From Hymenobacter metallilatus (GTDB lineage Bacteria > Bacteroidota > Bacteroidia > Cytophagales > Hymenobacteraceae): DNA of 64,000 nucleotides. This document shows positions 29,779 through 52,952 of the stretch, piece after piece; positions within the stretch are counted from its first letter, which is position 1, and each line of letters starts with the position of its first letter. The stretch covers positions 62,001 to 126,000 of the forward strand of contig NZ_RWIS01000013.1 in NCBI RefSeq assembly GCF_003944705.1. The letters are read 5' to 3'. The notes beneath the pieces are model-generated. The model worked only from the letters and a program-made list of their open reading frames with translations, was not told the DNA's origin and did not search any database. Made by a program: the position numbers and the translations under genes.

Positions 29779-32700
29779 TTAGGGCACGATGCAGCGGGCC
29801 TGCTGCTGCCCGGCGGCCGTACGGTAGCGGACGTGGTAAAGGCCCCGGGGCAGGCCCGTCAGGGAGAGGCGGCCGGGAGTACCGGGTGCTACGGCCGGTT
29901 GCGCCCGAACCACCTGCCCTACTGCGTTTAGTACTTCCACAGTGGCTGCTGTGGCCGGACCGGTGTATTGGTAGCTAACGGCGCCATCTTCGGCCAGCGT
30001 GGGGTATACCGCAAATTGGGCTTCCGGCACTTCACCAACGGCCAGGGTGCGCACCTGCGAGAAGGAAGCCGTGCCATTGGCATCTACCTGGCGGAGCCGG
30101 TAGTACACGAGCGGAGTATGGTAGCGGCTCAGGCCGGCATCCCGGAAGGAATAGGCGTGGGCCTGGGTTGAGCTACCCTGCCCGGCTACCCGTCCCAGGG
30201 ACCGGAACGTGCGGCCATCGGCGGATGACTCGACCTCGAAATAGGCATTGTTCAGTTCCTGGGCCGTTGCCCAGCGCAGCAGGGCGTCAGCGCCTTGCCG
30301 CTCGGCCGTGAAATCCGTAAGCTTAACGGGTAAGGGGTTGGAGCGGGCGCCCAGCGTCCAGATGGAGAAATGCTCGACTCCGGTGGCCGTAACCGTGTTG
30401 GCCGCGGGACTGGCACTGGCTACATTGATCCGGTCCCAGGGTCCCGAGGTACCGGTGCTGGAGCGGAAAATACCCAGGTCCGTTTCGGTGATGCCGTTCA
30501 ACTCTGCATCCAGATAGCCCAGCTCCACGGTTACCTCCAGCCCGGCGTTGGTAGTGGGCTGAATATCATAGTAGCGGCTGATGCTTTTGCTGGTTCCCTG
30601 ACCACTGAGAGCCGTGCCCGTAGTGCGCAGTACCACCGTCGAGCCGGGACTAACGGAGCCAGCGGCTGGTGTCAGCCTCAGTCCCAGCCCACCAAAGGAC
30701 TGCGTGGCGCCCGGCGCGAGGGCGCGGGTAGTAGCAACGATGCCGGTCACGTAGCTGGTAGCCGTTTCGCTGAGGGTGGCCGTGCTGCCCAGAGCCACCT
30801 GGTAGGAGTCGGTCAGGAGGCTGCCGCTGCTGAGCGTCAGAGCCACGCCTACGGGCATGTTCTGGGCCAGTTGCACCAGACCACTGGCTTTGTTTACAGA
30901 AACGGTGGTGAAGCCGGTAGCCGTGGTGCCGCCCAGGGTTTGAGTAGCTGCCGATCCGGTAAATACCACTGGTCCGGCCAGGGTAGCGGTACCGTTGTTG
31001 ATCCAGTCGCCGTGAATCTGCAGGGTAGCGCCCCCAGCCGTGGCCAGAGTGGCCCCGCTGGCAATTGTGAGGTTCTGGGCAGTATAGGTGCCGGCGGGCA
31101 GGCTGGGGTAGCGGCCCAGGCCGGCCGGAATAACGACGCTGGTAGCAGCATCGGGCACTTTACCGTAGCTCCAGTTGGCGCAGTCGGTCCAGGCAGAGCT
31201 GGCGCTGCCATTCCAGGTGGTAGTAGGCGTGGCGGGTACGCTTACCGTTACAAAGGCCGACTGCGTGGTGGTGTTGCCCGAGGCATCAGATACGGCTACT
31301 GTTACGGTTTGCGGCGTACCTACCTGGGCGCAGGTAAACGTAGCGGGCGTAATCACCACTGAGCTAACGGCGCAGTTGTCGGTAGCCCCGGTGTACACCT
31401 GGCTCTGGCTGAGCGTAGCCGTGCCGGAGGCACTCAGAGTAAGCGAGGCCGGCTGGGTAAAGGCACTGTTGTTGGGCACCAGAATGTAGAGGCGCTTCAC
31501 GGTGTAGGTGCTGGCATTGTAGGCAAAAGTCCAGTCGGGGTGGCCGCTGCCTCCCACCTGGCTACCAATGCCCAGGTCACCGATTCCGCCCCCGTCGCCG
31601 TTGCTGCCCCAGTTGTTGTAGGCCAGCAGGGTTTGAGCGTTGGTTACGTTATGCACCTGGAAGGAGCCGTAGTTGCGGTTGGCAGCCGGCAGGTCGCCGA
31701 AATCATAGAGGCTACCGCTGGCTCCGGGCACATTGCTGGCATTGGTGGGCTGGTAATCGGTGGTCCACATTTCCAGACGGCCGGTGCCCAGGCTAGTGCC
31801 CGTGGTAACGCCCGCGTTGCTGCTGGCAAACACGTTCAGGTTGCTCACGTTCTGGTTCCAGGCCACGTTATTGGCCGTCGGGTTAGGCATACCCAGCTGC
31901 GCCAGTGTGGAAGCGAAGTTGTCCATAGAGGCCCACACCCACTTCGTAACACCTCCGCTCTGCAGCTCCATAAAATAGGCCACGCGGGCGGGCCGGGCAA
32001 TGCTTACGCCCGAGTTGTTTACAGCGTAGGGAATGGACGATAAGCCATTAAAGCTGGCCGCGTTGGGAATATTAAGCTGGTAGAGTACGCCATAGTTGCC
32101 GGCCTCGGGTACATTGCTGGTGGCCAGCGCCGGGGCGGCGGGCAATGGGCCACTGCCGGCGGCGGCCGGCGCTGTATTATCAGTTACTGCTACAAGGGCC
32201 TGGGCCGTGCTGGTAGCCCCGCTGGCATCCGTTACGGTCAGGGTAACCGGCAAGCCAGGCGTAACCGGAGCACCCGGTGTGAGCCAGTTGGGGCTGCTGA
32301 AGAGCGTACCGGGGCTGTTAGACGCCGAGGCATCAGTTACGGTAGCACCGGATCCTTCATTGAGGCGGTAATATGCCACCAGGCCGCTGGTGCTGCCGGG
32401 CAGGCTGGCCGCGCGGGCGGTGCTGATTTGCGCAGCCGTACGGGCCACATTCCATACCCGAACCTCATCCAGGCGACCGGTAAGGAACTCGTTGGCTTGC
32501 GGGAATGAGCGTTGGGCCATGCGCCAGGTGGTACCCGTAGTATTGAAAGCCGAGGGGTTCAACTGCACGTCGAGCGCACCGTTTACGTAGAGCTTGAGGG
32601 TAACACCATCGTAGGTAGCAGCCACATGGTTCCAGGCATTCACCGTCAGGACCACATTACCACGCAGGTCGTTGTTTTCGCCCACGTAGTAGAGTCTGCC

Positions 32701-35700
32701 GCCATTAATCAGCAGGCCCGAGCGTTGGTTAATGGTGGGCGTACCATAATTAAAGATAACGCCGTTGGCCCCGGCCGCCGTGGGATATACCCAGGCTTCC
32801 AACGTACGGGCCGCGTTGCCCAGGGGCAGGTTAGCATTGGTTCCCTGCACATACTGGGTCGTGCCGTTGAAGCTCAAGGCCGCATTGGTTCCCGCAGGCA
32901 CCGCATCGGCGCAGCTGAACGCAGTAGTCGACAGGCTCAAGGCAGCGGGCGTAGCCGGACCACAGTTGGCAGTGCTGCCGTTGTTCACGGCTGTAGCTGC
33001 CACCGAAGCCGCACCACTGGCATTGAGTGTCACCGTCACGTTCTGGGCTACGGCCACCGGGGCCGCGCAGGTAGCAGCACTGATAGTGCCGGAATATGCC
33101 CCCTGGCCGCTAACGGAAGTTTTATCGGCCCGCAAGCGGTAGTAATACGTAGTACTGGCGGTCAGACCGGTAATGGGTTGGCTGGTAGCGCCAGCTGCCG
33201 GGGTGAGCGTGCTTACGCCCGATGCAAACGTGGCCGAAGTGGAGTAATCGAGTACATAACTGGTAACCGTACCCACTGCCGGAGCCGTCCAGGTGGCCGT
33301 AAAGCCGGTGCTACCAATAGTGGTAGCAGCCGTGGCCGTGGGCACTACCAGAGCGTAGCTTTCCAGGTAATTTGAGGTGGTGGTGCCAGTCAGCGCAAAA
33401 TTGGTGAGCGTGCCCGTAAAGGCGTTGTTGCTCTGGTCATAGAGCGTAGTCAGGCCCGCGTTGTTACCGCCGGCGGCGCCCTGGTCGAAGCTCAGGTACA
33501 GGCTCAGGCTGGCCGGCACGCTGGCAGTGGTGCTGAGCATATCGGCCTGCACCTGGGCCTGCGTGAGGGCAGCAGTATACATGCGCACCTCATCGAGCTT
33601 GCCATTAAAGAAGCGTTGCGGACTACCACTGAGCCAGCTACCAATGCTGTAGGGAGTTGCCGCTACCGCTACGGCCGTTGTGTACGTTCCCGTATGGTTC
33701 AGTACCCCGTTCACGTAAAATCTTACCGTTCTGGCGCTGGCCGAGTACACAACAGCTACGTGCGACCAACGGCCGGTAGGCAGGGCTGTAGTTGAAACCA
33801 CATCTACCGGACTGTTACCATTCACACTGAAGCCCAGGTTGTTACCATAGAACTGGCAATGCATGGCTTGGCCCGGGAAATTATCAGCCATTATTAGCGC
33901 ATCCAGGGAGCCACTAAAGGCCGCTGGATTCACCCAGGCTTCCAGGGTAAGCTCCGCCGTGGCAGGCAAAGTGCTAGCCATGCGCACGTAGTCATCGGTT
34001 CCATCGAAGGCCAGGGCATTGCCAGGCGGTGGCAGGAAAACGAAGGCCGTACTGGTTACCGTACCCCCCGGCGTAGTTACCAGACTCGTGCCGGTAGCCG
34101 TAGCGCCAGCCGGTACCCGAAAGGTAATGCTGGTGGCCGTATTGGTAAGAATTGTAGCCGCCGCACCGTTGATAGTCAGGGCCGTAGCTCCGGCCAGGTT
34201 GGTACCGGTGAGTGTAGCGGGCAGGCCGGCCCCCGCCGGATTGGGGCTGAAGCTGGTAATAGTGGGAGCCGGCGGCTGGTTGAGGCGCAGCTCTACTGCC
34301 GTGCTGCCGTTGTTGCCCACAAACAGGTCCAGGTCACCGTCGTTGTCGATGTCGGCCAGTACCGGGCTGTACCGGTCGCCGCCCAGGGCCAGATTGGTAG
34401 TGCCGCTGAAGGTGCCGCTGCCGTTATTAAAGCGAATACTGGCGGTGCCATTAGGCGAGCTATTAAAATTCGCCGTAGCCAGGTCCAGGTCACCGTCACT
34501 GTCCAAATCACCCAGAGTAATGCCCTGGGGTGAGGGACTCACGGTAATTTCCTGATTCGCAGCAAAAAGGCCAGTACCGCTGTTCAGGCGGATACTCACT
34601 GTACCGCTTCCCAGGTTGGATACCGCCATATCCAGGTCTCCGTCGCCGTCCAGGTCGCCCAGGGAAATGCGGCCGGGGTTAGTACCTACGCCCGGGTTAT
34701 AGGAGCCACTGAATGAGCCGCTGCCGTCGTTCAGGCGCACGGCCACCGAGTTGGAGTTGTAACATGGAGCCAGCAGGTCCAGGTCGCCGTCGGCATCCAC
34801 ATCACCCAGGGTCAACCCAAAGCAGCTGGAGCTCACTCCGATAACCTGAGCACTACTGAAGGAGCCGCTACCGGAGTTTATCAGTACGGTGATGGAGCTA
34901 TTGTTGGCCACGAAGTTCACTACCAGCGCATCCAGGTCGCCATCGGCATCCACATCGCCCAGGGTCAGCGCATACGGTGTGCCGATGCTCAGATCCTGGC
35001 CGCCAGAAAAGGTGCCGCTGCCGTTGTTCAGCCGGACGCTTACCTGTCCGCCGGAGAAATTTCCGGTCATGATATCCAGGTCACCATCGGCGTCCAGGTC
35101 GCCCAGCGCCAGCGTGTTGGGGCTGATGGGTACCGAAGCGGCCGTGCCAGCCGTAAAGCCACCGGCACCATTGCCGAGCAGTACGTTTACCGTATTGCCG
35201 CTACCCGCCGTGAGCAGGTCAAGGTTACCGTCGCCGTTCACGTCGCCTACACTCAGGGAGCGGGGCGAGAATCCCCCGTTAATTGTGGTACTGGCAGGAA
35301 AGTTTCCCCGGCCCGAACCACCGGCAGCCGTTGTAAACTGATACACCTGCTTGTTGGTGGTAGCGGCGCCCCCAGTGCTGGTTACAGTGGCCGGAATGCT
35401 GGTAAACACCGTTTCACCGGGTTCAAAGCTCACGCTGGGGTCGAAGGTGACGGTGCTGCCGCTGGTGCTGTAGGTGCCGGCTTTCCGCCCCCCGGCCTGG
35501 GCCGAGAACACCCGGATAGTGCTGGCCGTAGCCGAGTTGATATTCTGGGAAAAACCAACCTGCACGTTGCTGCCCGCAGCGGCCGTTTTGGCATTGCGCA
35601 CGGGCGCCAGGCTGGTTACAGCCGGTGGGTCGACGGTAAATGCAGTGGAGGTGAAGGTGGCGTAGGTACCGTCGTTGGCCGGCTGAATGCTGCCAACCAG

Positions 35701-36261
35701 TACGCCGTCGATATATACATTCAGGTTCTGGTTGTTGCTGGAGCAGCAGTTGCGTTGCGCTACCTGAAAGCGGACCCGGTACTGCCCCGTGCCGAGAGTA
35801 AGGGTTTGCTGAATCTGCCCGTTGGCCGTACCCGCCGTGCTCTGCACAAACGCCACGGCAGAGCCGTTGGGCGTAATGGGTGCGCCAAAGCCTCCTCCAT
35901 TCAGGGCAATACCCGAGCGGGAATTGAACGCCCATGATGCTCCGGCGGGCGCGTAACCATAGCTGCCGTTGCCTAATGCGCCGTAGCTTTCAAAACTGGG
36001 GTTGGTCACGGCCCCGCTTATCACAATGCCATCCGACACCCGCACAATTTCTACCAGATCAACGAAGGCCGTCACGTCGGCGCTGGTGTTGCCCGTACCC
36101 TGAATCAGGAGGACAGGATTGGCGGCCCAAGCGGATGCAGAGCTGGTCAGCAGCAGTAACAGCAGCAGCCAGGCGCTCCGCCAGGCCGGGTGGCGAGAGG
36201 GAGTGGTGGTTAGCTGCGTAGTGGGGTAAACCCCACGAATGAGTAGAGGTGTTCGGTGCAT
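29779..36261 (-). CDS. Giant secreted multidomain protein with type IX sorting domain
   Basis: This 2160-residue protein has a signal peptide to about 47 (ending SASAWA). Domains: a jelly-roll-like module (48-215), a Big_5-type Ig domain (215-315) and seven FG-GAP/VCBS repeats with DxDGDLD calcium loops (330-660), predicting a seven-bladed propeller. Then come an IPT/TIG domain (665-745), a LamG (746-950), a fibronectin III (970-1065), a second LamG (1120-1320), two HYR-like segments (about 1335 and 1605), and a long beta region from TTTWNGSASSAWTDCANW (1680). A C-terminal T9SS type A sorting domain (about 2080-2160) starts FAVYPTLAEDG. Expected fate: outer-membrane passage by the Por system and surface attachment or release. 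It is a probable adhesin or glycan-binding protein with no catalytic domain seen. It is placed just after a two-component regulator. Confidence 0.85.
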   Translation of the reverse strand: MHRTPLLIRGVYPTTQLTTTPSRHPAWRSAWLLLLLLLTSSASAWAANPVLLIQGTGNTSADVTAFVDLVEIVRVSDGIVISGAVTNPSFESYGALGNGSYGYAPAGASWAFNSRSGIALNGGGFGAPITPNGSAVAFVQSTAGTANGQIQQTLTLGTGQYRVRFQVAQRNCCSSNNQNLNVYIDGVLVGSIQPANDGTYATFTSTAFTVDPPAVTSLAPVRNAKTAAAGSNVQVGFSQNINSATASTIRVFSAQAGGRKAGTYSTSGSTVTFDPSVSFEPGETVFTSIPATVTSTGGAATTNKQVYQFTTAAGGSGRGNFPASTTINGGFSPRSLSVGDVNGDGNLDLLTAGSGNTVNVLLGNGAGGFTAGTAASVPISPNTLALGDLDADGDLDIMTGNFSGGQVSVRLNNGSGTFSGGQDLSIGTPYALTLGDVDADGDLDALVVNFVANNSSITVLINSGSGSFSSAQVIGVSSSCFGLTLGDVDADGDLDLLAPCYNSNSVAVRLNDGSGSFSGSYNPGVGTNPGRISLGDLDGDGDLDMAVSNLGSGTVSIRLNSGTGLFAANQEITVSPSPQGITLGDLDSDGDLDLATANFNSSPNGTASIRFNNGSGTFSGTTNLALGGDRYSPVLADIDNDGDLDLFVGNNGSTAVELRLNQPPAPTITSFSPNPAGAGLPATLTGTNLAGATALTINGAAATILTNTATSITFRVPAGATATGTSLVTTPGGTVTSTAFVFLPPPGNALAFDGTDDYVRMASTLPATAELTLEAWVNPAAFSGSLDALIMADNFPGQAMHCQFYGNNLGFSVNGNSPVDVVSTTALPTGRWSHVAVVYSASARTVRFYVNGVLNHTGTYTTAVAVAATPYSIGSWLSGSPQRFFNGKLDEVRMYTAALTQAQVQADMLSTTASVPASLSLYLSFDQGAAGGNNAGLTTLYDQSNNAFTGTLTNFALTGTTTSNYLESYALVVPTATAATTIGSTGFTATWTAPAVGTVTSYVLDYSTSATFASGVSTLTPAAGATSQPITGLTASTTYYYRLRADKTSVSGQGAYSGTISAATCAAPVAVAQNVTVTLNASGAASVAATAVNNGSTANCGPATPAALSLSTTAFSCADAVPAGTNAALSFNGTTQYVQGTNANLPLGNAARTLEAWVYPTAAGANGVIFNYGTPTINQRSGLLINGGRLYYVGENNDLRGNVVLTVNAWNHVAATYDGVTLKLYVNGALDVQLNPSAFNTTGTTWRMAQRSFPQANEFLTGRLDEVRVWNVARTAAQISTARAASLPGSTSGLVAYYRLNEGSGATVTDASASNSPGTLFSSPNWLTPGAPVTPGLPVTLTVTDASGATSTAQALVAVTDNTAPAAAGSGPLPAAPALATSNVPEAGNYGVLYQLNIPNAASFNGLSSIPYAVNNSGVSIARPARVAYFMELQSGGVTKWVWASMDNFASTLAQLGMPNPTANNVAWNQNVSNLNVFASSNAGVTTGTSLGTGRLEMWTTDYQPTNASNVPGASGSLYDFGDLPAANRNYGSFQVHNVTNAQTLLAYNNWGSNGDGGGIGDLGIGSQVGGSGHPDWTFAYNASTYTVKRLYILVPNNSAFTQPASLTLSASGTATLSQSQVYTGATDNCAVSSVVITPATFTCAQVGTPQTVTVAVSDASGNTTTQSAFVTVSVPATPTTTWNGSASSAWTDCANWSYGKVPDAATSVVIPAGLGRYPSLPAGTYTAQNLTIASGATLATAGGATLQIHGDWINNGTATLAGPVVFTGSAATQTLGGTTATGFTTVSVNKASGLVQLAQNMPVGVALTLSSGSLLTDSYQVALGSTATLSETATSYVTGIVATTRALAPGATQSFGGLGLRLTPAAGSVSPGSTVVLRTTGTALSGQGTSKSISRYYDIQPTTNAGLEVTVELGYLDAELNGITETDLGIFRSSTGTSGPWDRINVASASPAANTVTATGVEHFSIWTLGARSNPLPVKLTDFTAERQGADALLRWATAQELNNAYFEVESSADGRTFRSLGRVAGQGSSTQAHAYSFRDAGLSRYHTPLVYYRLRQVDANGTASFSQVRTLAVGEVPEAQFAVYPTLAEDGAVSYQYTGPATAATVEVLNAVGQVVRAQPAVAPGTPGRLSLTGLPRGLYHVRYRTAAGQQQARCIVP

Positions 36262-45903: not shown

Positions 45904-47502
45904 CTAATACAGCCGGTGGCGCAACAGCCAGCCGGCCGCGTCAAACTCCTCAGCTCGGGGCTGGTATTTTTCTACTTTAAGTATACCGGTCCGCAGGGTA
46001 TTACCGTCGCCGCTGTCGTACACGGTGAGGCGGCTGCGCAGGCGGCGGGTCGGTACGGGGGTGGCCTCTATCAAATCCTGGCCGGCCCCATCGTACACGC
46101 CAATTTCCAGGTGAGCATCCGGCTCCCCTCGCAATTCAAACTCATCATTGCCGCCCAGCCCAAACAGCTTGAGGGAGCGGGTTTCGGGGTGTAGGAAGGT
46201 GCGTTGCCAAAGCAGAGTAGCGCCGTGGGGCGTGAGGTGGAACACCTGCACCCGAACGTTGCCGGCCCCGGCCGGCTCCAGCACAAACCGCTCGGCTTCG
46301 TCGGTGCCGGGCAGCTCCACGTCGCGGGCCAGCAGCTCGTAGAACCGCTCAGCCACGGCGGGCAGCTGCTCCCGGCGGCTGCGCAGCTTGCGGCTGAAAT
46401 CGGGGCTGCTCATGTGCTGCACCTCCTGGGGCCACACGGCCAGGGCCCGGGCAATGGCAGCATCGGTGAGGGAGCCCCGGAGCGAATCGGCCACCTGCCG
46501 GAAATCCTCCCGGCTCAGATAAGCCAGCAACGACTTGTCCATGGGGCGGGCCGCCTGGTTAAGACCTTCCACGTCGGCCAGCCGGATTTTCTCGTGAAAG
46601 CTCTGATAGTTGGATTTCACCCAGCCAATCATGTGGGTCAGCAGGCCATCATCGAACTTAAAGAACGCATGGTCCCGGTCGCGCGGAATTGCCCGGTACA
46701 CGGTGCCGCCGCCCTTCGCCGCGAAGCTGGCCCAGCGCCACTGGTCTTCGCGCCGGCTCCAGTCGCCCAGCCACATATCAAACAGCCGGCTGCGCAAGTA
46801 CTGGCGGGCATCTACCCGAAACCGGGAGCTGGCTACTAAGTTGGTAAACACTTTGCGGGAGCTTTCCACGGCGCCAGAGTTGCCAAAGCTGCGCACGGTG
46901 CGCTGGTCGCCCTCGGGCCGCTCCTCAAAGAGGTATAATGCATTAGCAAAACTTTGCCGGTACTCCCCAAGGGCCGGGTCGTCGGCCACGTAGATCAGGC
47001 GTGGATTGGTGTGATAGAGGCCGGCCGCCTCGGCCAGCGGGGCCACAATGTAGGCCCCATACGGATGAATAACGCTGGTCTGGTCCTTCATCAGGCGGCC
47101 GATGGGCCCATTTTGCAGGCCTTCGGGCAGTGCCTTCGTGGCGTCTTTATCCACGGAGCGCAACACATACTGCACTCCGTTACGGTCAACCAGGCGCAGG
47201 TTTTTGGTTTGGAAAGAGCCACCTTCCCGCACCGGGGTGAGGCCGCCGGGTACGGCCGTGCGCAGGTTGAACACGGGCGCGGTTACGGGCAGGGCCCAGA
47301 GTGCCCGGTAGTGAGTACCCCAAAAAAACCGGTGCAGCGCCCCGCGCGTGTACTGAGGCCCAGCCGCTACCTGCACCGTAGAATCGGGCCGAATGGGTGG
47401 GGCGGCCGTGGGCCGGGGCTGGGCCGGGGCCTGGCAGGAGGCCAGTAATAAGCCGCCGCTCAGGCAAGTGGCCAGCCAGGAGGCAGGAGAAGGTAACGGC
47501 AC
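45904..47502 (-). CDS. Lipoprotein with kinase-like motifs, paralogue of the divergent gene
   Basis: The protein has 532 residues from the GTG at 47502; a TTG at 47553 is also in frame. Lipobox LLLASC near residue 22. A long conserved domain carries VLRSVDKDATKALP (about 111-124), TSVIHPYGAYIVAPLAEAAG, LFEERPEGDQ, LFDMWLGDWSRREDQWRWAS (about 236-255) and IPRDRDHAFFKFDDG (about 264-278). It ends with a beta-rich region to RAEEFDAAGWLLRHRLY. The GDWxRxxxQWxW and PxDRDxxFF motifs recall the catalytic loop and metal motif of CotH/Fam20-type kinases. That is inference only. From memory, this domain is the middle part of composite Bacteroidota proteins with an N-terminal phosphoesterase and a C-terminal outer-membrane barrel. 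Confidence 0.6.
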   Translation of the reverse strand: MPLPSPASWLATCLSGGLLLASCQAPAQPRPTAAPPIRPDSTVQVAAGPQYTRGALHRFFWGTHYRALWALPVTAPVFNLRTAVPGGLTPVREGGSFQTKNLRLVDRNGVQYVLRSVDKDATKALPEGLQNGPIGRLMKDQTSVIHPYGAYIVAPLAEAAGLYHTNPRLIYVADDPALGEYRQSFANALYLFEERPEGDQRTVRSFGNSGAVESSRKVFTNLVASSRFRVDARQYLRSRLFDMWLGDWSRREDQWRWASFAAKGGGTVYRAIPRDRDHAFFKFDDGLLTHMIGWVKSNYQSFHEKIRLADVEGLNQAARPMDKSLLAYLSREDFRQVADSLRGSLTDAAIARALAVWPQEVQHMSSPDFSRKLRSRREQLPAVAERFYELLARDVELPGTDEAERFVLEPAGAGNVRVQVFHLTPHGATLLWQRTFLHPETRSLKLFGLGGNDEFELRGEPDAHLEIGVYDGAGQDLIEATPVPTRRLRSRLTVYDSGDGNTLRTGILKVEKYQPRAEEFDAAGWLLRHRLY

Positions 47503-47654
47503 GAACTGGTACGTTTGGATCAGGTTTGGGAGCCACTCCAACAAGAGCGGCAAGGCTTATAGCGCAAACCACCCCCCGGCGGTTATCCAGGGGCGCATTG
47601 ACTTTTCTGTGAAAGTTGCGTTGAAGGAACCCAAGCTGCGCTTTTCTGCCCTGC

Positions 47655-49250
47655 ATGACTGCACGTTTCTCCTCCCTTTTTCTGCTGCTGGCCGCTGCCT
47701 CCTGCAGCCGCGACACCTACTTCCAGCCCGATGCCCGGGTTGACTATGCCTCGCCGCTGCCCCCCGGTACCGATAGTGCCCGGGTAACGGCGGGCCGCCA
47801 TTACCGGCGGGGGCCGGTGGGCCGCTTTTTTCTGGGCAGCCACTACCGGCGGGCCTGGGCCCAGCCAGTGCTGTTACCGGTATTCAACCCCCAAACTGCC
47901 GTGCCGGGCGGCTTGCGCTTCGGCAAAGTTGGGGGCGGCTTTCAAACCACCAGCATGACGCTGCTGGGCCCCGACGGCCGCGGCTACGCCCTGCGCAGCA
48001 TCGACAAAGACCCCTACCGCACCCTGCCCAAGGCACTGCGCCAGGGGTTTATACTCACCACCGTGCGCGACGCCACCTCGGCGGGTATGCCCTACGGTGC
48101 CTTTGTAGTGCCCCCGTTGGCCGCTGCGGCTGGCCTGCCGCATACATCACCCCGGGCATTTTATGTTCGCCCCGATGAGGATGGGCTGGGTGAAGCCTCC
48201 GAGCGGTTCCGGGGCAAAGTGGTGCTGCTGGAAGAGAAATTCGAAGGCAAGCAGAATATAGCCGGACCAGTGGCCGGGGCCCAGGACTTGGAAGAATCGG
48301 AAGACGTGCTGGAGGCCCGGTACGCCTCGCCCCAGCATCGGCTGGATGGGGAAACCTACGTGCGCGCCCGCCTGCTGGACCTGTGGCTGGGCGACTGGGA
48401 CCGGCACGAGGGCCAATGGAGCTGGGCCGGCTACCGGCAGGCCACTGGCTATACACTCTGGAAACCCGTTCCCCAAGACCGGGACCAGGTTTTTTTTCGC
48501 TTTGATGATGGGGTGATACCGTGGCTAATAAGCCGGCTGGCGGCCAAGTTCCGGACATTTAAGCCCCGCTATGAGAGCATAGAAGGCTACACCCGTAATG
48601 CGGTTTTCATAGATGAGCGGGCCCTGGCGGCGGTACCCCGCAGCAGTTACCTGCAGGCGGCCCGGGACTTGCAGCTCCGCCTCACCGACGCCGTGCTGGA
48701 ACAGGCAGTGCGGCAGGGTCTACCACCCGAAGTGTACCGCCTGGAAGGCCGGAATATAATAACTGCCCTGCAGGCCCGCCGGACCGCCCTGCCTCAGGCT
48801 GCCGCCGACTTTTACCGGCTGAAAGCCCGCACGGTAATGGTAGCAGGCACCGATGAAGACGAGCGGTTTGTGGTGGAGCGCCTGCACGATACGGCCACGG
48901 TGGTATCGGTGTACACGCTGCCGCTGAACCGCCAGAATCCGGCGGCCTCGTTGCAGTACCGGCGCAGCTTCAACCCGGCCTATACCCGCACAGTGGTTTT
49001 GCACGGCTTACAAGGCAAGGATGAGTTTCTGGTATCGGGCACGGTGCACCGCTCACCGGTACTGGCTGTGTACGGCGGCCCCGATGCCGACCTGCTTCAG
49101 GACTCCTCCCGCGTGGCCGGTCTGCGCAAGCGTACCCGTTTTTTCGATACCAAACGCAACAACAGCCTGCAACCCGGCCCCGAAACCAAAGACCGCACCG
49201 ACCACAGCGTCCGGTCCCATGCCTTCGACCGGGACGGCTCGGGAAGGTGA
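47655..49250 (+). CDS. Lipoprotein with kinase-like motifs, probably 3'-truncated paralogue
   Basis: This 531-residue lipoprotein (signal FSSLFLLLAAASC, Cys17) is homologous over its length to the divergent gene at 45904. Shared landmarks: GLRFGKVGGGFQTTSMTLLG, YALRSIDKDPYRTLPKAL (about 110-128), LLDLWLGDWDRHEGQWSWAG (about 240-259) and VPQDRDQVFFRFDDG (about 272-286). The motifs suggest an atypical kinase fold (inference). The C-terminus stops abruptly at HAFDRDGSGR, with the TGA immediately before a heptamer array. In relatives, as I recall them, the sequence continues into an outer-membrane barrel, so truncation at the repeat is likely. The 152-bp gap to the paralogue is the shared promoter region. 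Confidence 0.6.
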   Translation: MTARFSSLFLLLAAASCSRDTYFQPDARVDYASPLPPGTDSARVTAGRHYRRGPVGRFFLGSHYRRAWAQPVLLPVFNPQTAVPGGLRFGKVGGGFQTTSMTLLGPDGRGYALRSIDKDPYRTLPKALRQGFILTTVRDATSAGMPYGAFVVPPLAAAAGLPHTSPRAFYVRPDEDGLGEASERFRGKVVLLEEKFEGKQNIAGPVAGAQDLEESEDVLEARYASPQHRLDGETYVRARLLDLWLGDWDRHEGQWSWAGYRQATGYTLWKPVPQDRDQVFFRFDDGVIPWLISRLAAKFRTFKPRYESIEGYTRNAVFIDERALAAVPRSSYLQAARDLQLRLTDAVLEQAVRQGLPPEVYRLEGRNIITALQARRTALPQAAADFYRLKARTVMVAGTDEDERFVVERLHDTATVVSVYTLPLNRQNPAASLQYRRSFNPAYTRTVVLHGLQGKDEFLVSGTVHRSPVLAVYGGPDADLLQDSSRVAGLRKRTRFFDTKRNNSLQPGPETKDRTDHSVRSHAFDRDGSGR

Positions 49251-49410
49251 GGGATGAAGGATGAAGGATGAAGGATGAAGGATAAGGGATAAAGGACAAG
49301 GGACAATAATCTAACGGTGTCCTTTATCCCTTATCCTTTATCCCTTATCCTTCATCCCTTATCCTTCATCCCTTATCCTTCATCCCTTATCCTTCATCCC
49401 TTATCCTTTT
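49248..49410. repeat. Inverted heptamer arrays (GGATGAA / TTCATCC)
   Basis: About eight heptamers GGATGAA to GGACAAT (49252-49307) face about thirteen heptamers TCCTTTA/TCCCTTA/TCCTTCA (49320-49410), with a spacer of about 12 bp. The left array starts at the TGA of the lipoprotein gene; the right array encodes the last residues KDKG and the stop of topoisomerase IB. Confidence 0.95.
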
Positions 49411-50521
49411 CCAACTCCGCCAGCATGTCCAGCACCATATGTTCGGTGGGGGTTAGCAGGTCGTTTTCCGAAGGGTCCGCATCGTGGCGGCGTAGGTAGT
49501 CGATGAGTTTGTCGGAGTTAAACAGCTCGATGACCTGCGGGTGGATGTAGTATTTGGAGCACACGGTGGGCGTGTTGCCCAGGTTTTCGGCTACATCCTT
49601 CACCGCACGCTTCAGCGTTTTGGGCTTGGGAAAATCCGGCTCTTCGTCCAGTATCCGTTCCAGGCACTCCACCATCTTCACGGTACCACCCCAGGTCCGG
49701 AAATCCTTGGCGGAAAGGCTCAGGCCTGTTACCTCGTGCAGGTAGTCGTTTACGTCGCCCGATTCCAGCTCCTGCCGGTGGCCGTCGGGAGTGTAGTACT
49801 GAAACAGGTGCTGCCCCGGTATTTCCTTGCATTTCTGTACCAGCCGGGCCAGCTTCCGGTCATGAATGGTGAGGTCGTGCGGCACGCCCTTCTTCCCCAC
49901 AAAGCTGAAGCGCACATCGGCCCCACTCACCTGCACGTGCTTGTCGCGCAGGGTGGTAAGGCCGTACGTTTTGTTTTTCTTGGCGTACTCCTTATTGCCC
50001 ACCCGCATAAACGACTGGTCCATCAGGGTAAGCACCAGGGCCACCACCTTCTGTTTGTCCAGCTGAGGCCGCTGCAAATCCTGGTGCATACGGGCGCGCA
50101 GCTCGGCCAGCTTCTCGCCAAAAGCCCGCAGCCGGCTGAATTTGGTAAGGGAGCGAGCCTGGTCCCAGGCCGGATGGTAGAGGTACTGCTTCCGGCCTTT
50201 CGCGTCGCGGCCGGTTACCTGCAGGTGGGTGGTGGCGGAAGGCGAAATCCATACCTCCGTCCAGGCCGGCGGAATCACGAAGCCCCGAATCCGGGTCAAC
50301 GTTTTTTCATCCTTCACCGGCTCTCCCTTAGCTGTCTGATACGCAAAGCTGCCGTTGCTGGTGGGTACGCGGGTAAGGCCGGGTTTAGTATCGGGGAGGT
50401 AGCGCAGGCCGGCCAGCTCGGCCTGCCGGGCCGGATCCTTGTAGAGCACATGCGCCTCCTCCAGGGGGGTGAGGCGCTTTTTTTTGATTTTAGGGCGGGG
50501 GGTGGAAGTGGCCGTTGCCAT
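49394..50521 (-). CDS. DNA topoisomerase IB (poxvirus-like)
   Basis: This 375-residue type IB topoisomerase nicks one strand, forms a 3'-phosphotyrosine and relaxes supercoils without ATP. It has an N-terminal domain with YLPDTKPGLTRV and RIRGFVIPPAWTEVWISP. The catalytic domain contains RVGNKEYAKKNKTYGLTTL, FVGKKGVPHDL, DFRTWGGTVKMVE, and VCSKYYIHPQVIE near the end, where Tyr325 is the likely nucleophile. The ATG at 50521 begins MATATSTPRPKIKKKRL; the frame reaches 50587. The last two heptamers of the adjacent repeat encode its C-terminal residues. Bacterial homologues are sporadic and often laterally acquired. Confidence 0.9.
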   Translation of the reverse strand: MATATSTPRPKIKKKRLTPLEEAHVLYKDPARQAELAGLRYLPDTKPGLTRVPTSNGSFAYQTAKGEPVKDEKTLTRIRGFVIPPAWTEVWISPSATTHLQVTGRDAKGRKQYLYHPAWDQARSLTKFSRLRAFGEKLAELRARMHQDLQRPQLDKQKVVALVLTLMDQSFMRVGNKEYAKKNKTYGLTTLRDKHVQVSGADVRFSFVGKKGVPHDLTIHDRKLARLVQKCKEIPGQHLFQYYTPDGHRQELESGDVNDYLHEVTGLSLSAKDFRTWGGTVKMVECLERILDEEPDFPKPKTLKRAVKDVAENLGNTPTVCSKYYIHPQVIELFNSDKLIDYLRRHDADPSENDLLTPTEHMVLDMLAELEKDKG

Positions 50522-50809
50522 AGAGCGGTAGAAACGTAAAAATCCGTTGATAGTAACGGAGCCTCTCTCTACGCAGGAATGCCGCACAGGGTGCCAGCCA
50601 CCTGCCAGCGGGCCACTCGCCGGACAGTCGGTACCGGGGCCGGCTGCTTTTTTTCAGGCTGATTCTGCGGGCTGTAGCCCTGGCTGGCGGCTGCCCCATG
50701 TAACACCTGCTGCCGGCCGGCCGTTAGGAGGCTGCAGCTCTGGCATTGTTTTCTCTAAGAAGCCTGCATTCTGTTCCTTTTCCTTCCCATTTCAATTTCT
50801 CGCGAAGTC

Positions 50810-51619
50810 ATGCGAAATATGTTGCAAAAAACCGGCCTGCTTGCGGGCCTTGCCCTTACGCTGGCAGGTGCTGCCTCCTGCTCCAAAGACGGCGACGGAG
50901 TACTGTTGTTTTCCGTGGAAGACGACAAAGCCCTGGGTGAAAAAGTAGCCGCCCAAACCGATTCCACCTTCCGGGCCAAGGGCCAGCTGCTGGAACCCGG
51001 CAGCAACCCTCAGGCTTACGCCGCCCTGGGCCGTATTGTAACGCGGGTGTTGGATAACGGCAAGCTCCAATACCGCAACGAGTTTCCCTGGGATGTAAAA
51101 ATCATCCGCGACGATGCCACTCAGAATGCCTTTGCCACGCCCGGCGGCCATATTTACGTGTACTCGGGCCTGATTAAGTTTCTGGATAACGAAACCCAGC
51201 TGGCCGGGGTGCTGGGTCACGAAATTGCTCACGCCGACCGGCGCCACACCTCCCGCCAGCTGCAGAGCCAGTATGGCATTAGTGTGCTGCTAAGCCTGCT
51301 GCTGGGTGAGAATGAGAATACGCTGGTAAATGTGGCCGCCAGCCTGGGCCAGCTCAAATTCAGCCGCGACTACGAAACCGAGGCTGATGCTTACTCCGTG
51401 GAATACCTGAACGGAACGAACTACTATGCCTGCGACGGAGCGGCCGGCTTCTTTATCAAGGCTCAGAATGAAGGGCAGCAGAACCCCCCGGAATTTTTGA
51501 GCACCCACCCCGACCCCGGCTCCCGCATTCAGAATATCCAAACCAAAGCCGACCAGCTGAGCTGCCGCAACCGCTCGGCCGGCAACTCCGATTTTGCCGC
51601 GTTGCGTAGCGCGCTGTAA
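50810..51619 (+). CDS. M48-family metalloprotease lipoprotein
   Basis: This 269-residue protein has lipobox GAASC (Cys24). The M48 zinc site is HEIAH (His137, Glu138, His141), with the third ligand Glu191 in YETEADAYSV. NAFATPGGHIYVYSGLI precedes the zinc motif as in BepA/LoiP-type proteases, and PPEFLSTHPDPGSRIQ is the usual C-terminal motif. The expected role is periplasmic quality control of outer-membrane proteins. A second M48 protease is at 57714. It starts at the ATG at 50810 and is followed by a terminator. Confidence 0.88.
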   Translation: MRNMLQKTGLLAGLALTLAGAASCSKDGDGVLLFSVEDDKALGEKVAAQTDSTFRAKGQLLEPGSNPQAYAALGRIVTRVLDNGKLQYRNEFPWDVKIIRDDATQNAFATPGGHIYVYSGLIKFLDNETQLAGVLGHEIAHADRRHTSRQLQSQYGISVLLSLLLGENENTLVNVAASLGQLKFSRDYETEADAYSVEYLNGTNYYACDGAAGFFIKAQNEGQQNPPEFLSTHPDPGSRIQNIQTKADQLSCRNRSAGNSDFAALRSAL

Positions 51620-51641
51620 AACACCTGCTAGTTCAGTAAAT

Positions 51642-51676
51642 CAGGCTCCCGGAGAATTCTTCGGGAGCTTTTTTTA
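51642..51676 (+). terminator. Terminator after the M48 lipoprotease gene
   Basis: The stem GCTCCCGGAGAA / TTCTTCGGGAGC (imperfect at the top) is followed by TTTTTTTAT, about 25 bp after the stop. Confidence 0.85.
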
Positions 51677-51767
51677 TCTGTTTTCTACAGTTTCGCACCC
51701 TGGCACAACACAGCCCTAGTGGTTTTGCGTAGGCAAACCACTGGTAAACCGCTTTATACTACGCCTG

Positions 51768-52952
51768 ATGGCTCCACTTCTAAGCAAACTCAACGACTGG
51801 GCCGAACGGGCCGACGATGCCCTGACCCGCACCCGCGCCCGCCTGGGCCTGCTGCATCCGTTGCAACTGGTACCCTACCGCAGCTACGGCACCCCGGAGC
51901 GCCTGTACGTGAAAGGCCGCCTGCTTACTGATAAGGGCATTAGTGAGGCTGACCCAGCTGATTCGCGCTGGCACAACCTGCTGAATATGTACCGGCGCTT
52001 CGACAGCAACGAAATCAGCGGGGCCCAGCTCAGCGTGCTGCCCGCCGATGGCTCCGACCACACTGTGGTATCGGATGAGGAGGGCTATTTCACCTTGAAT
52101 CTGGCTCCTAAGGCGCTGCCCGAGCCCGTTGACTACCTGTGGTATCCGGTAGAGGTACTACTGCGCCGGGCACCGGCCCCGTTCCCGACGCCCCCGGCCC
52201 TCACCACCCGGGCCATGGTGCTCATTCCCCCTCCCGACGCGGAATACGGCATCATTTCCGACCTCGACGACACAGTAATTCAGACCTCGGCCACCGATTT
52301 GCTGCGCATGGCCCGTACGGTACTACTGCGCAATGCCCGCTCCCGGCTGCCCTTCAAAGGCGTGGCCGAGTTCTACCGGCAGTTACAATTGGGCCGTAAC
52401 GGCAAGCGCAACAACCCTTTCTTCTACGTATCCTCCTCACCCTGGAATCTGTATGACTTGCTGGAGGATTTCCTGCACCTGAACGAAATTCCGCCCGGGC
52501 CGCTGCTGCTCCGGGACATGGCCCTTAAGCGCAAGCAGGCTGGGGCCGAGTCGGAGCACCATGGCCACAAGCTCAAGGAAATTGACAACCTGCTCCTCAC
52601 CTACCCCAAGCTGCCCTTTGTGCTCATTGGCGACTCAGGCCAGGAGGATGCCAATATTTACCGGGAAGTTGTGCGCCGTCACCCCGGCCGTGTGCTGGCC
52701 ATCTACATCCGCGACGTGAACCTGCCGGACCGGGCGGCCATGGTGCAGAAAGTATCTGAGGAGCTGCACAACGATAAAGTGGAAATGCTGCTGGTGAAAG
52801 ATACCGTGCAGGCTGCCCAGCACGCCGCTAACACGGGGCTGGTATTTCAGGCCGCCGTACCCGCCGTGGAGCAGGAAAAGCAAAAGGATGAAGCCGCCCC
52901 CGAAGCCGCCGACCTGGACGGCGAAGGCTCCGGTGAACCAGTAATGCAGTAG
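51768..52952 (+). CDS. App1-like phosphatidate phosphatase domain protein (DUF2183)
   Basis: This 394-residue cytoplasmic protein has a beta-rich N-terminal half (residues 35-155) and a HAD-type App1 domain. The domain has IISDLDDTVIQT (DxDxT motif about 164-168), FFYVSSSPWNLYDLLEDFL near 220 and VLIGDSGQEDANIY near 285. App1 homologues dephosphorylate phosphatidic acid or related lipids; the bacterial substrate is not established. It starts at the ATG at 51768. The Glu/Ala-rich tail after about 365 is not conserved. The TAG stop is the first element of an octamer repeat. Confidence 0.87.
   Translation: MAPLLSKLNDWAERADDALTRTRARLGLLHPLQLVPYRSYGTPERLYVKGRLLTDKGISEADPADSRWHNLLNMYRRFDSNEISGAQLSVLPADGSDHTVVSDEEGYFTLNLAPKALPEPVDYLWYPVEVLLRRAPAPFPTPPALTTRAMVLIPPPDAEYGIISDLDDTVIQTSATDLLRMARTVLLRNARSRLPFKGVAEFYRQLQLGRNGKRNNPFFYVSSSPWNLYDLLEDFLHLNEIPPGPLLLRDMALKRKQAGAESEHHGHKLKEIDNLLLTYPKLPFVLIGDSGQEDANIYREVVRRHPGRVLAIYIRDVNLPDRAAMVQKVSEELHNDKVEMLLVKDTVQAAQHAANTGLVFQAAVPAVEQEKQKDEAAPEAADLDGEGSGEPVMQ

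Follow-up and report, generated by a model that had tools for sequence, protein, structure and literature searches.

A divergent pair of paralogous genes, P0001 and P0002, lies in a 64,000-nucleotide stretch of the Hymenobacter metallilatus genome (Bacteroidota; assembly GCF_003944705.1, contig NZ_RWIS01000013.1, positions 62,001 to 126,000; hereafter the window). According to our analysis, P0002 is predicted to carry an atypical kinase domain with its candidate active-site residues in place, whereas P0001 has Ser in place of the putative catalytic Asp. We posit, with moderate confidence in the reading as a whole, that P0002 acts as a phosphotransferase in the envelope, with P0001 as its pseudokinase partner. 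The two back-to-back open reading frames (ORFs) described in an initial annotation, made from the DNA letters alone, were recovered at their coordinates (Table 1), and their products are paralogues (199/520 identities, 38%; 314 bits).

The kinase assignment comes first from the predicted structure of P0002. Its AlphaFold2 model, computed from a 123-row alignment, has a predicted local distance difference test score (pLDDT) of 94.0 and a predicted template-modelling score of 0.93, and displays a two-lobed kinase fold. In VIA-align, model residues of about 55-375 matched PI4KIIb (Z 14.6, root-mean-square deviation (rmsd) 4.4, 252 residues aligned) and CotH (5jd9; Z 14.6, rmsd 4.2, 258 aligned), followed by CtkA (Z 13.3, rmsd 4.6, 231 aligned), actin-fragmin kinase (Z 11.6), HipA (Z 11.2) and Fam20 (4kqa; Z 10.5). 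Foldseek against the PDB gave five matches at E <= 0.001, four HipA chains and one chain of a HipBST complex (E 3.1e-4 to 7.2e-4), and thereafter PI4KII, Fam20, Rio, protein kinases and small-molecule kinases. The titles of the 50 VIA-align matches listed are those of kinases or kinase complexes, save LepB and some entries titled MDT protein; the latter, like one of the Foldseek HipA chains, we take to be HipA. LepB is termed a kinase in the available text of PMC9758233. The best solved structures are kinases, and the inference of an atypical kinase made in the initial annotation is thus supported in its fold, as modelled, and in its residues. Based on this model, we are confident that residues 72-392 of P0002 adopt a kinase fold. 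A merely superficial resemblance with an unrelated fold would fit the lack of a sequence family for P0001 and P0002 and the low TM-scores given below, but the model is of high confidence and kinases fill the 50 matches listed, and we regard this explanation as extremely improbable.

Residue conservation was followed in P0002 numbering across 207 aligned rows, kept from 219 ORF hits (12 dropped) and comprising 176 short frames, 16 of 820-1149 residues and 15 of at least 1150. Because Hymenobacter and its relatives are over-represented in these rows, we also aligned 36 rows of greater diversity; the same blocks recurred there, with one relative (L122) having lost most of them. P0001 and P0002 have three blocks in common, RSVDKD/RSIDKD, GDWSRREDQWRW/GDWDRHEGQWSW and PRDRDHAFFKFDDG/PQDRDQVFFRFDDG, the third lying 16 residues past the second. 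All three had been pointed out in the initial annotation, and their near-invariance in the 207 relatives sets them above chance. R114 and K118 are each kept in 205 rows, D139, D247 and D277 in 206, and E193, D242 and D275 in all 207; the Lys/Arg and Asp positions were near-invariant in the diverse rows as well. Position 249 is the variable one, with D in 126 rows, S in 79, and G and N in one row each; position 254 is Q or N in 206 rows (Gln in 191). P0002 has the putative catalytic-loop Asp and the amide residue five positions on (D249, Q254), followed past the loop by a putative metal-binding Asp, D275, which pairs with the PxDxD of CotH. The D-R/H catalytic loop earlier ascribed to both copies therefore holds for P0002, but not for P0001, which has Ser for Asp and Arg for His. 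In the N-lobe, the conserved Arg lies in a strand with the Lys four residues further, and R114 and K118 are candidates for contacting nucleotide phosphates.

Sequence comparisons with known kinases are weak when taken singly, but they are mutually consistent and in line with the fold. The family profile aligned to 28 Bacteroidota CotH domains (2 of 30 loci dropped) with an hhalign score of 27.8, compared with a maximum of 24.0 and a median of 14.5 for 100 column shuffles and 16.2 for the reversed profile, and in this alignment D249 falls on the WD of CotH and D275 on its PxDxD. A hand count in the Bacillus cereus CotH loop gave D, N at +5 and D at +23, and the corresponding series in the family is D, Q at +5 and D at +26. 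Bacillus subtilis CotH is inactivated by D228Q and by D251A, as stated in the accessible part of PMC7821199; because the spacing of +23 matches, we place these residues on the CotH loop Asp residues. CotH residues are equated with PKA D166, N171 and D184 in the portion of PMC12189002 at hand. A PDB search with the diverse profile aligned GNFDRHNGNWGF of CtkA on the catalytic loop, and CotH was the sole Pfam family to which more than one of the 36 diverse members had any match (4/36, best E 0.021). The earlier reading of D-R-H as catalytic loop and of DRD as metal site agrees with both CotH and CtkA.

P0001 shares its Ser at position 249 with the 79 rows noted above, all of them short frames. 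In a quick tree of 44 of the 207 rows, which has three long branches, the nine Ser rows included form one clade (Shimodaira-Hasegawa-like approximate likelihood-ratio test, SH-aLRT, 89) beside 11 D rows (SH-aLRT 100). We counted pairs in 80 loci, each fetched with about 4 kb on either side; these loci were picked by similarity to P0002, so that copies with Asp were guaranteed and copies with Ser were not. The intact copy has a Ser copy nearby in 77 of the 80 loci, in divergent orientation in 53, divergent with a second intact copy in 11 and in tandem in 13, and stands alone in the remaining three. In one locus (L081), about 2 kb separates the two copies. We regard P0001 as a candidate pseudokinase.

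In our proposal, P0002 is anchored in the envelope by a lipid, and its residues 72-392 make up an atypical kinase domain of the PI4K/HipA/CotH/Fam20 type. The protein would take phosphate from a nucleotide and pass it on to a target in the envelope. D249 would act as the catalytic base and D275 as a metal ligand, with the invariant Arg and Lys of the RS-DKD block touching the nucleotide phosphates. P0001, in which the base is replaced by Ser and the other active-site residues are kept, would be a pseudokinase regulator of P0002, in the way that Fam20A acts on Fam20C.

The envelope location is read from the N-termini. The lipobox of P0001 (LASC) is good, yet no ATG precedes it, and the true start may lie further inside the TTG ORF; the lipobox of P0002 (AASC) is weak. 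The lipoprotein status assigned to both in the initial annotation is therefore likely, though short of proof. Of 168 family ORFs in loci L005-L084, 100 fit a relaxed lipobox pattern. An acidic run after the lipobox Cys is a signal for surface export, and none was present in the 40 commonest N-termini listed, which suggests that the lipoproteins of this family face the periplasm.

Several points weigh against a kinase of this kind. The Foldseek TM-scores, normalised by query, are 0.15-0.30 with identities of 8-16% in the 50 matches listed, so that the homology is remote and drawn from a predicted model. Neither P0001 nor P0002 matched any Pfam or NCBIfam model at E <= 1, and the gathering cut-off of CotH (PF08757; 23.8 bits) was not reached by the two relatives inspected singly (14.8 and 13.2 bits). 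The hhalign comparison with CotH has a P of 0.0085 yet an HH-suite probability of 4.7% (P 0.013 and 3.4% with untrimmed profiles), and that with HipA (score 20.6, P 0.1) gave no support and was set aside. CtkA, at E 0.25, came second of four in the diverse-profile PDB search, behind urocanase (E 0.07). Single members of the 36 match unrelated Pfam families with E down to 0.0055, and two match NCBIfam TIGR02256 (best E 0.017). The usual N-lobe Lys is without a clear counterpart in P0002, and we know of no free ATP pool in the outer envelope. Finally, P0001 retains the near-invariant D247, which precedes D249 by two residues, and could thus be active through another residue. The low HH-suite probability bears on the link to CotH, and the fold evidence stands without that link.

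Further searches were negative within their scope. HipA_C (PF07804) and the Fam20C model of Pfam were unmatched by P0001, P0002 and the 36 diverse members, so that the likeness to Fam20 is one of fold only, and the PDB sequence search with A1 returned four matches with no kinase among them (best E 0.18). The PI3/PI4-kinase model of Pfam matched 0 of 118 Bacteroidota genomes, which leaves no bacterial PI4K alignment for comparison.

The conservation of D247 underlies the view that P0001 is a second active enzyme, working through such a residue on a different substrate. All 79 Ser rows keep D247, and P0001 retains the other blocks; on the other hand, CotH and CtkA have Asn at this position, and the catalytic Asp of CotH, numbered by spacing from the available text on the B. 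subtilis protein, lies two residues further on. We consider a second active enzyme rather unlikely. The fold leaves room for another departure from our proposal, namely that P0002 is not a protein kinase and instead catalyses AMPylation, polyglutamylation or a similar reaction, or phosphorylates lipids or glycans. PI4KII, a lipid kinase, ties for best structural match, and a gene with an APP1 phosphatidate-phosphatase domain occurs in the flanks of 56 of the 80 loci. Kinase-fold proteins that AMPylate or polyglutamylate are cited in the accessible text of PMC7948968. This tie identifies no substrate, however, as CotH and CtkA match comparably, and the Asp residues follow one another in the order and at the spacing seen in CotH, a protein kinase; we hold such an activity to be possible, with a low probability.

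The domain occurs widely across the phylum, in 143 of 395 Bacteroidota genomes in a profile search and in 112 of 296 in a single-sequence search. A scan of named species retained the best 80 of the 219 relatives, all by title from Hymenobacter and related genera and therefore skewed, which the phylum searches offset. A plasmid search yielded five records, from Hymenobacter, Persicobacter and Parabacteroides. CotH-family matches occurred in 46 of 118 Bacteroidota genomes, with none in H. metallilatus, whose genome has two HipA_C matches (G000 C7:30257-30952 and C1:124071-124289), one of them a short piece.

Family ORFs are mostly of about 430-590, 840-960 or 1200-1400 residues, and architecture classes were set by this length, with Pfam run on six relatives only. 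One long chain (L114) has a calcineurin-like phosphoesterase and an Omp85 domain over cut-off, two chains of 870-940 residues have Omp85 over cut-off and no phosphoesterase, and another long chain (L115) and two short ones have nothing over cut-off. The domain thus occurs as a free-standing protein, joined to an Omp85 barrel, or placed between a phosphoesterase and a barrel. The H. metallilatus genome has four members, P0001, P0002, L114 and L115.

A second pair within the family is formed by intact and doubly altered barrel fusions in Hymenobacter. One fusion carrying ADFGKHEDNWKW, in which the kinase Asp is lost, was found in all four Hymenobacter genomes examined, including H. metallilatus. 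Its phosphoesterase motifs are changed as well, GD to GN, GNHD to GDKD and GHxH to AHDF/Y in 4/4 and HHP to HQP in 2/4; we presume these to be catalytic motifs. Because the four fusions look orthologous from the motif that they share, they were counted as one event. The other distinct fusions keep the phosphoesterase motifs in 17/17, and the kinase Asp was seen in the 16 of these 17 whose loop was fetched, all but the L200 chain. That one paralogue line has lost both sites together amounts to a natural experiment linking kinase and phosphatase.

These fusions bear on whether the domain acts as an enzyme at all. A non-enzymatic scaffold or binding module with a kinase fold could occupy the place that POTRA domains have in other Omp85 proteins, which would fit its position before the barrel in the fused relatives with an Omp85 match and the maintenance of two paralogue lines without the catalytic Asp. 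A pure scaffold would not require Asp residues, and the retention of D249, D275 and D277 in the numbers given above argues against it; we find it quite unlikely. Returning to a phosphotransferase, we tentatively put forward a wider hypothesis, which we think has only a modest chance of being correct: the Bacteroidota outer membrane may hold a reversible-phosphorylation module, with phosphoesterase, atypical kinase and Omp85 barrel in one chain and free lipoprotein versions besides, in which site-dead twins would regulate the intact copies and the cycle would control assembly or modification of outer-membrane components.

Table 1. Features of the P0001/P0002 pair (window positions) and of the doubly altered fusion (locus positions)
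Feature	Position	Strand	Basis or remark
P0001, predicted lipoprotein, divergent paralogue	45904-47553	-	549 aa from TTG
Putative metal loop retained in P0001, PRDRDHAFFKFDDG, residues 290-303	46645-46686	-	alignment to P0002
Altered catalytic loop of P0001, GDWSRREDQWRW, residues 263-274	46732-46767	-	alignment to P0002 and relatives
RSVDKD block of P0001, residues 132-137	47143-47160	-	alignment to P0002
Intergenic stretch separating the divergent ORFs	47554-47654	.	ORF limits
P0002, predicted envelope lipoprotein with kinase-like domain, D249 and D275 intact	47655-49250	+	531 aa from ATG
Kinase-like domain of P0002, residues 72-392 (model residues 55-375)	47868-48830	+	VIA-align ranges against PI4KII, CotH and CtkA
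RSIDKD block of P0002 (R114, K118), N-lobe strand (model 93-98)	47994-48011	+	conservation, model
Putative catalytic loop of P0002, GDWDRHEGQWSW, residues 246-257; D249 at the CotH catalytic Asp / CtkA DRH position	48390-48425	+	hhalign to CotH, B. cereus CotH sequence, CtkA alignment
Putative metal-binding loop of P0002, PQDRDQVFFRFDDG, residues 273-286; D275 at the first Asp of CotH PxDxD	48471-48512	+	conservation, hhalign, B. cereus CotH sequence
C-terminal beta domain of P0002, residues 389-531	48819-49247	+	model pLDDT 87.5; fold assignment weak, RTX-like at best
Doubly altered fusion	L115:1937-5662 (H. metallilatus genome); L188/L195, L189/L196, L190/L197 (other Hymenobacter genomes)		

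The C-terminal domain of P0002 had no Foldseek match under E 0.75, and its best VIA-align matches, RTX beta-rolls at Z 5.3-6.5, are too weak for a claim. The family consensus displays GGxGxD-like turns there, and the domain could possibly bind Ca. A promoter scan of the stretch separating the two genes gave no sigma-70-type match and no promoter-like site. Next to the pair, topoisomerase IB, M48 peptidase and APP1-domain genes (window 49394-52952) are near it in 61, 48 and 56 of the 80 loci, respectively; the nearness of the APP1 and topoisomerase IB genes may be meaningless. Elsewhere in the window, a 2160-residue protein with FG-GAP, laminin-G, fn3 and TIG domains is encoded at 29779-36261 on the reverse strand.

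Among the matches listed in the open-access literature, no description was found of this family, of its fusions or of envelope kinases of this kind. While the kinase superfamily is known, the family, the phosphatase and barrel fusions and the pairs of intact and crippled copies appear to be new. If our interpretation is true, Bacteroidota possess an outer-envelope kinase family that is unnamed in Pfam and NCBIfam and is partly joined in one chain with a phosphatase and a barrel. Both the source of the phosphate donor for an outer-envelope kinase and a control of outer-membrane biogenesis by phosphorylation would then become testable.

Among known systems, CtkA shares with the family the loop pattern GN-F-DRH-N-G-N-W, and HipA/HipT and CtkA share the fold (HipA, Foldseek E 3e-4); these are not known to be outer-envelope proteins. 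CotH has the same fold and, in like order, the catalytic Asp, the amide at +5 and the P-x-D-x-D metal loop, but its Asp-to-Asp spacing is 23 as compared with 26 in the P0002 family, which moreover has Gln for Asn (191/207), an extra C-terminal beta domain and fusions to barrel and phosphoesterase. Fam20A, an inactive paralogue, activates Fam20C outside the cytoplasm according to the available portions of PMC4421857 and PMC7948968. To judge from these, Fam20C/Fam20A resembles P0002/P0001 in the fold and in pairing an intact with a crippled paralogue in a non-cytoplasmic setting, but Fam20A has lost a metal-coordinating Glu and P0001 the catalytic-loop Asp, and the pairing of P0001 with P0002 is known from gene nearness and residue loss. 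A Riemerella metallophosphoesterase was set aside as a related system, being listed as a type IX effector in the accessible parts of two citing papers. The 'Metallo' subfamily of Omp85 proteins, as presented in the available text of PMC4104836, is defined by PF00149 and PF01103 in one chain, a combination that L114 has (1/6 relatives scanned) and that is absent from P0001 and P0002, which have no barrel. The main text of that paper has no word beginning with kinase or phosph, and we infer that its 'Metallo' and 'noNterm' subfamilies may be the fusion architectures described here, with the middle domain unseen.

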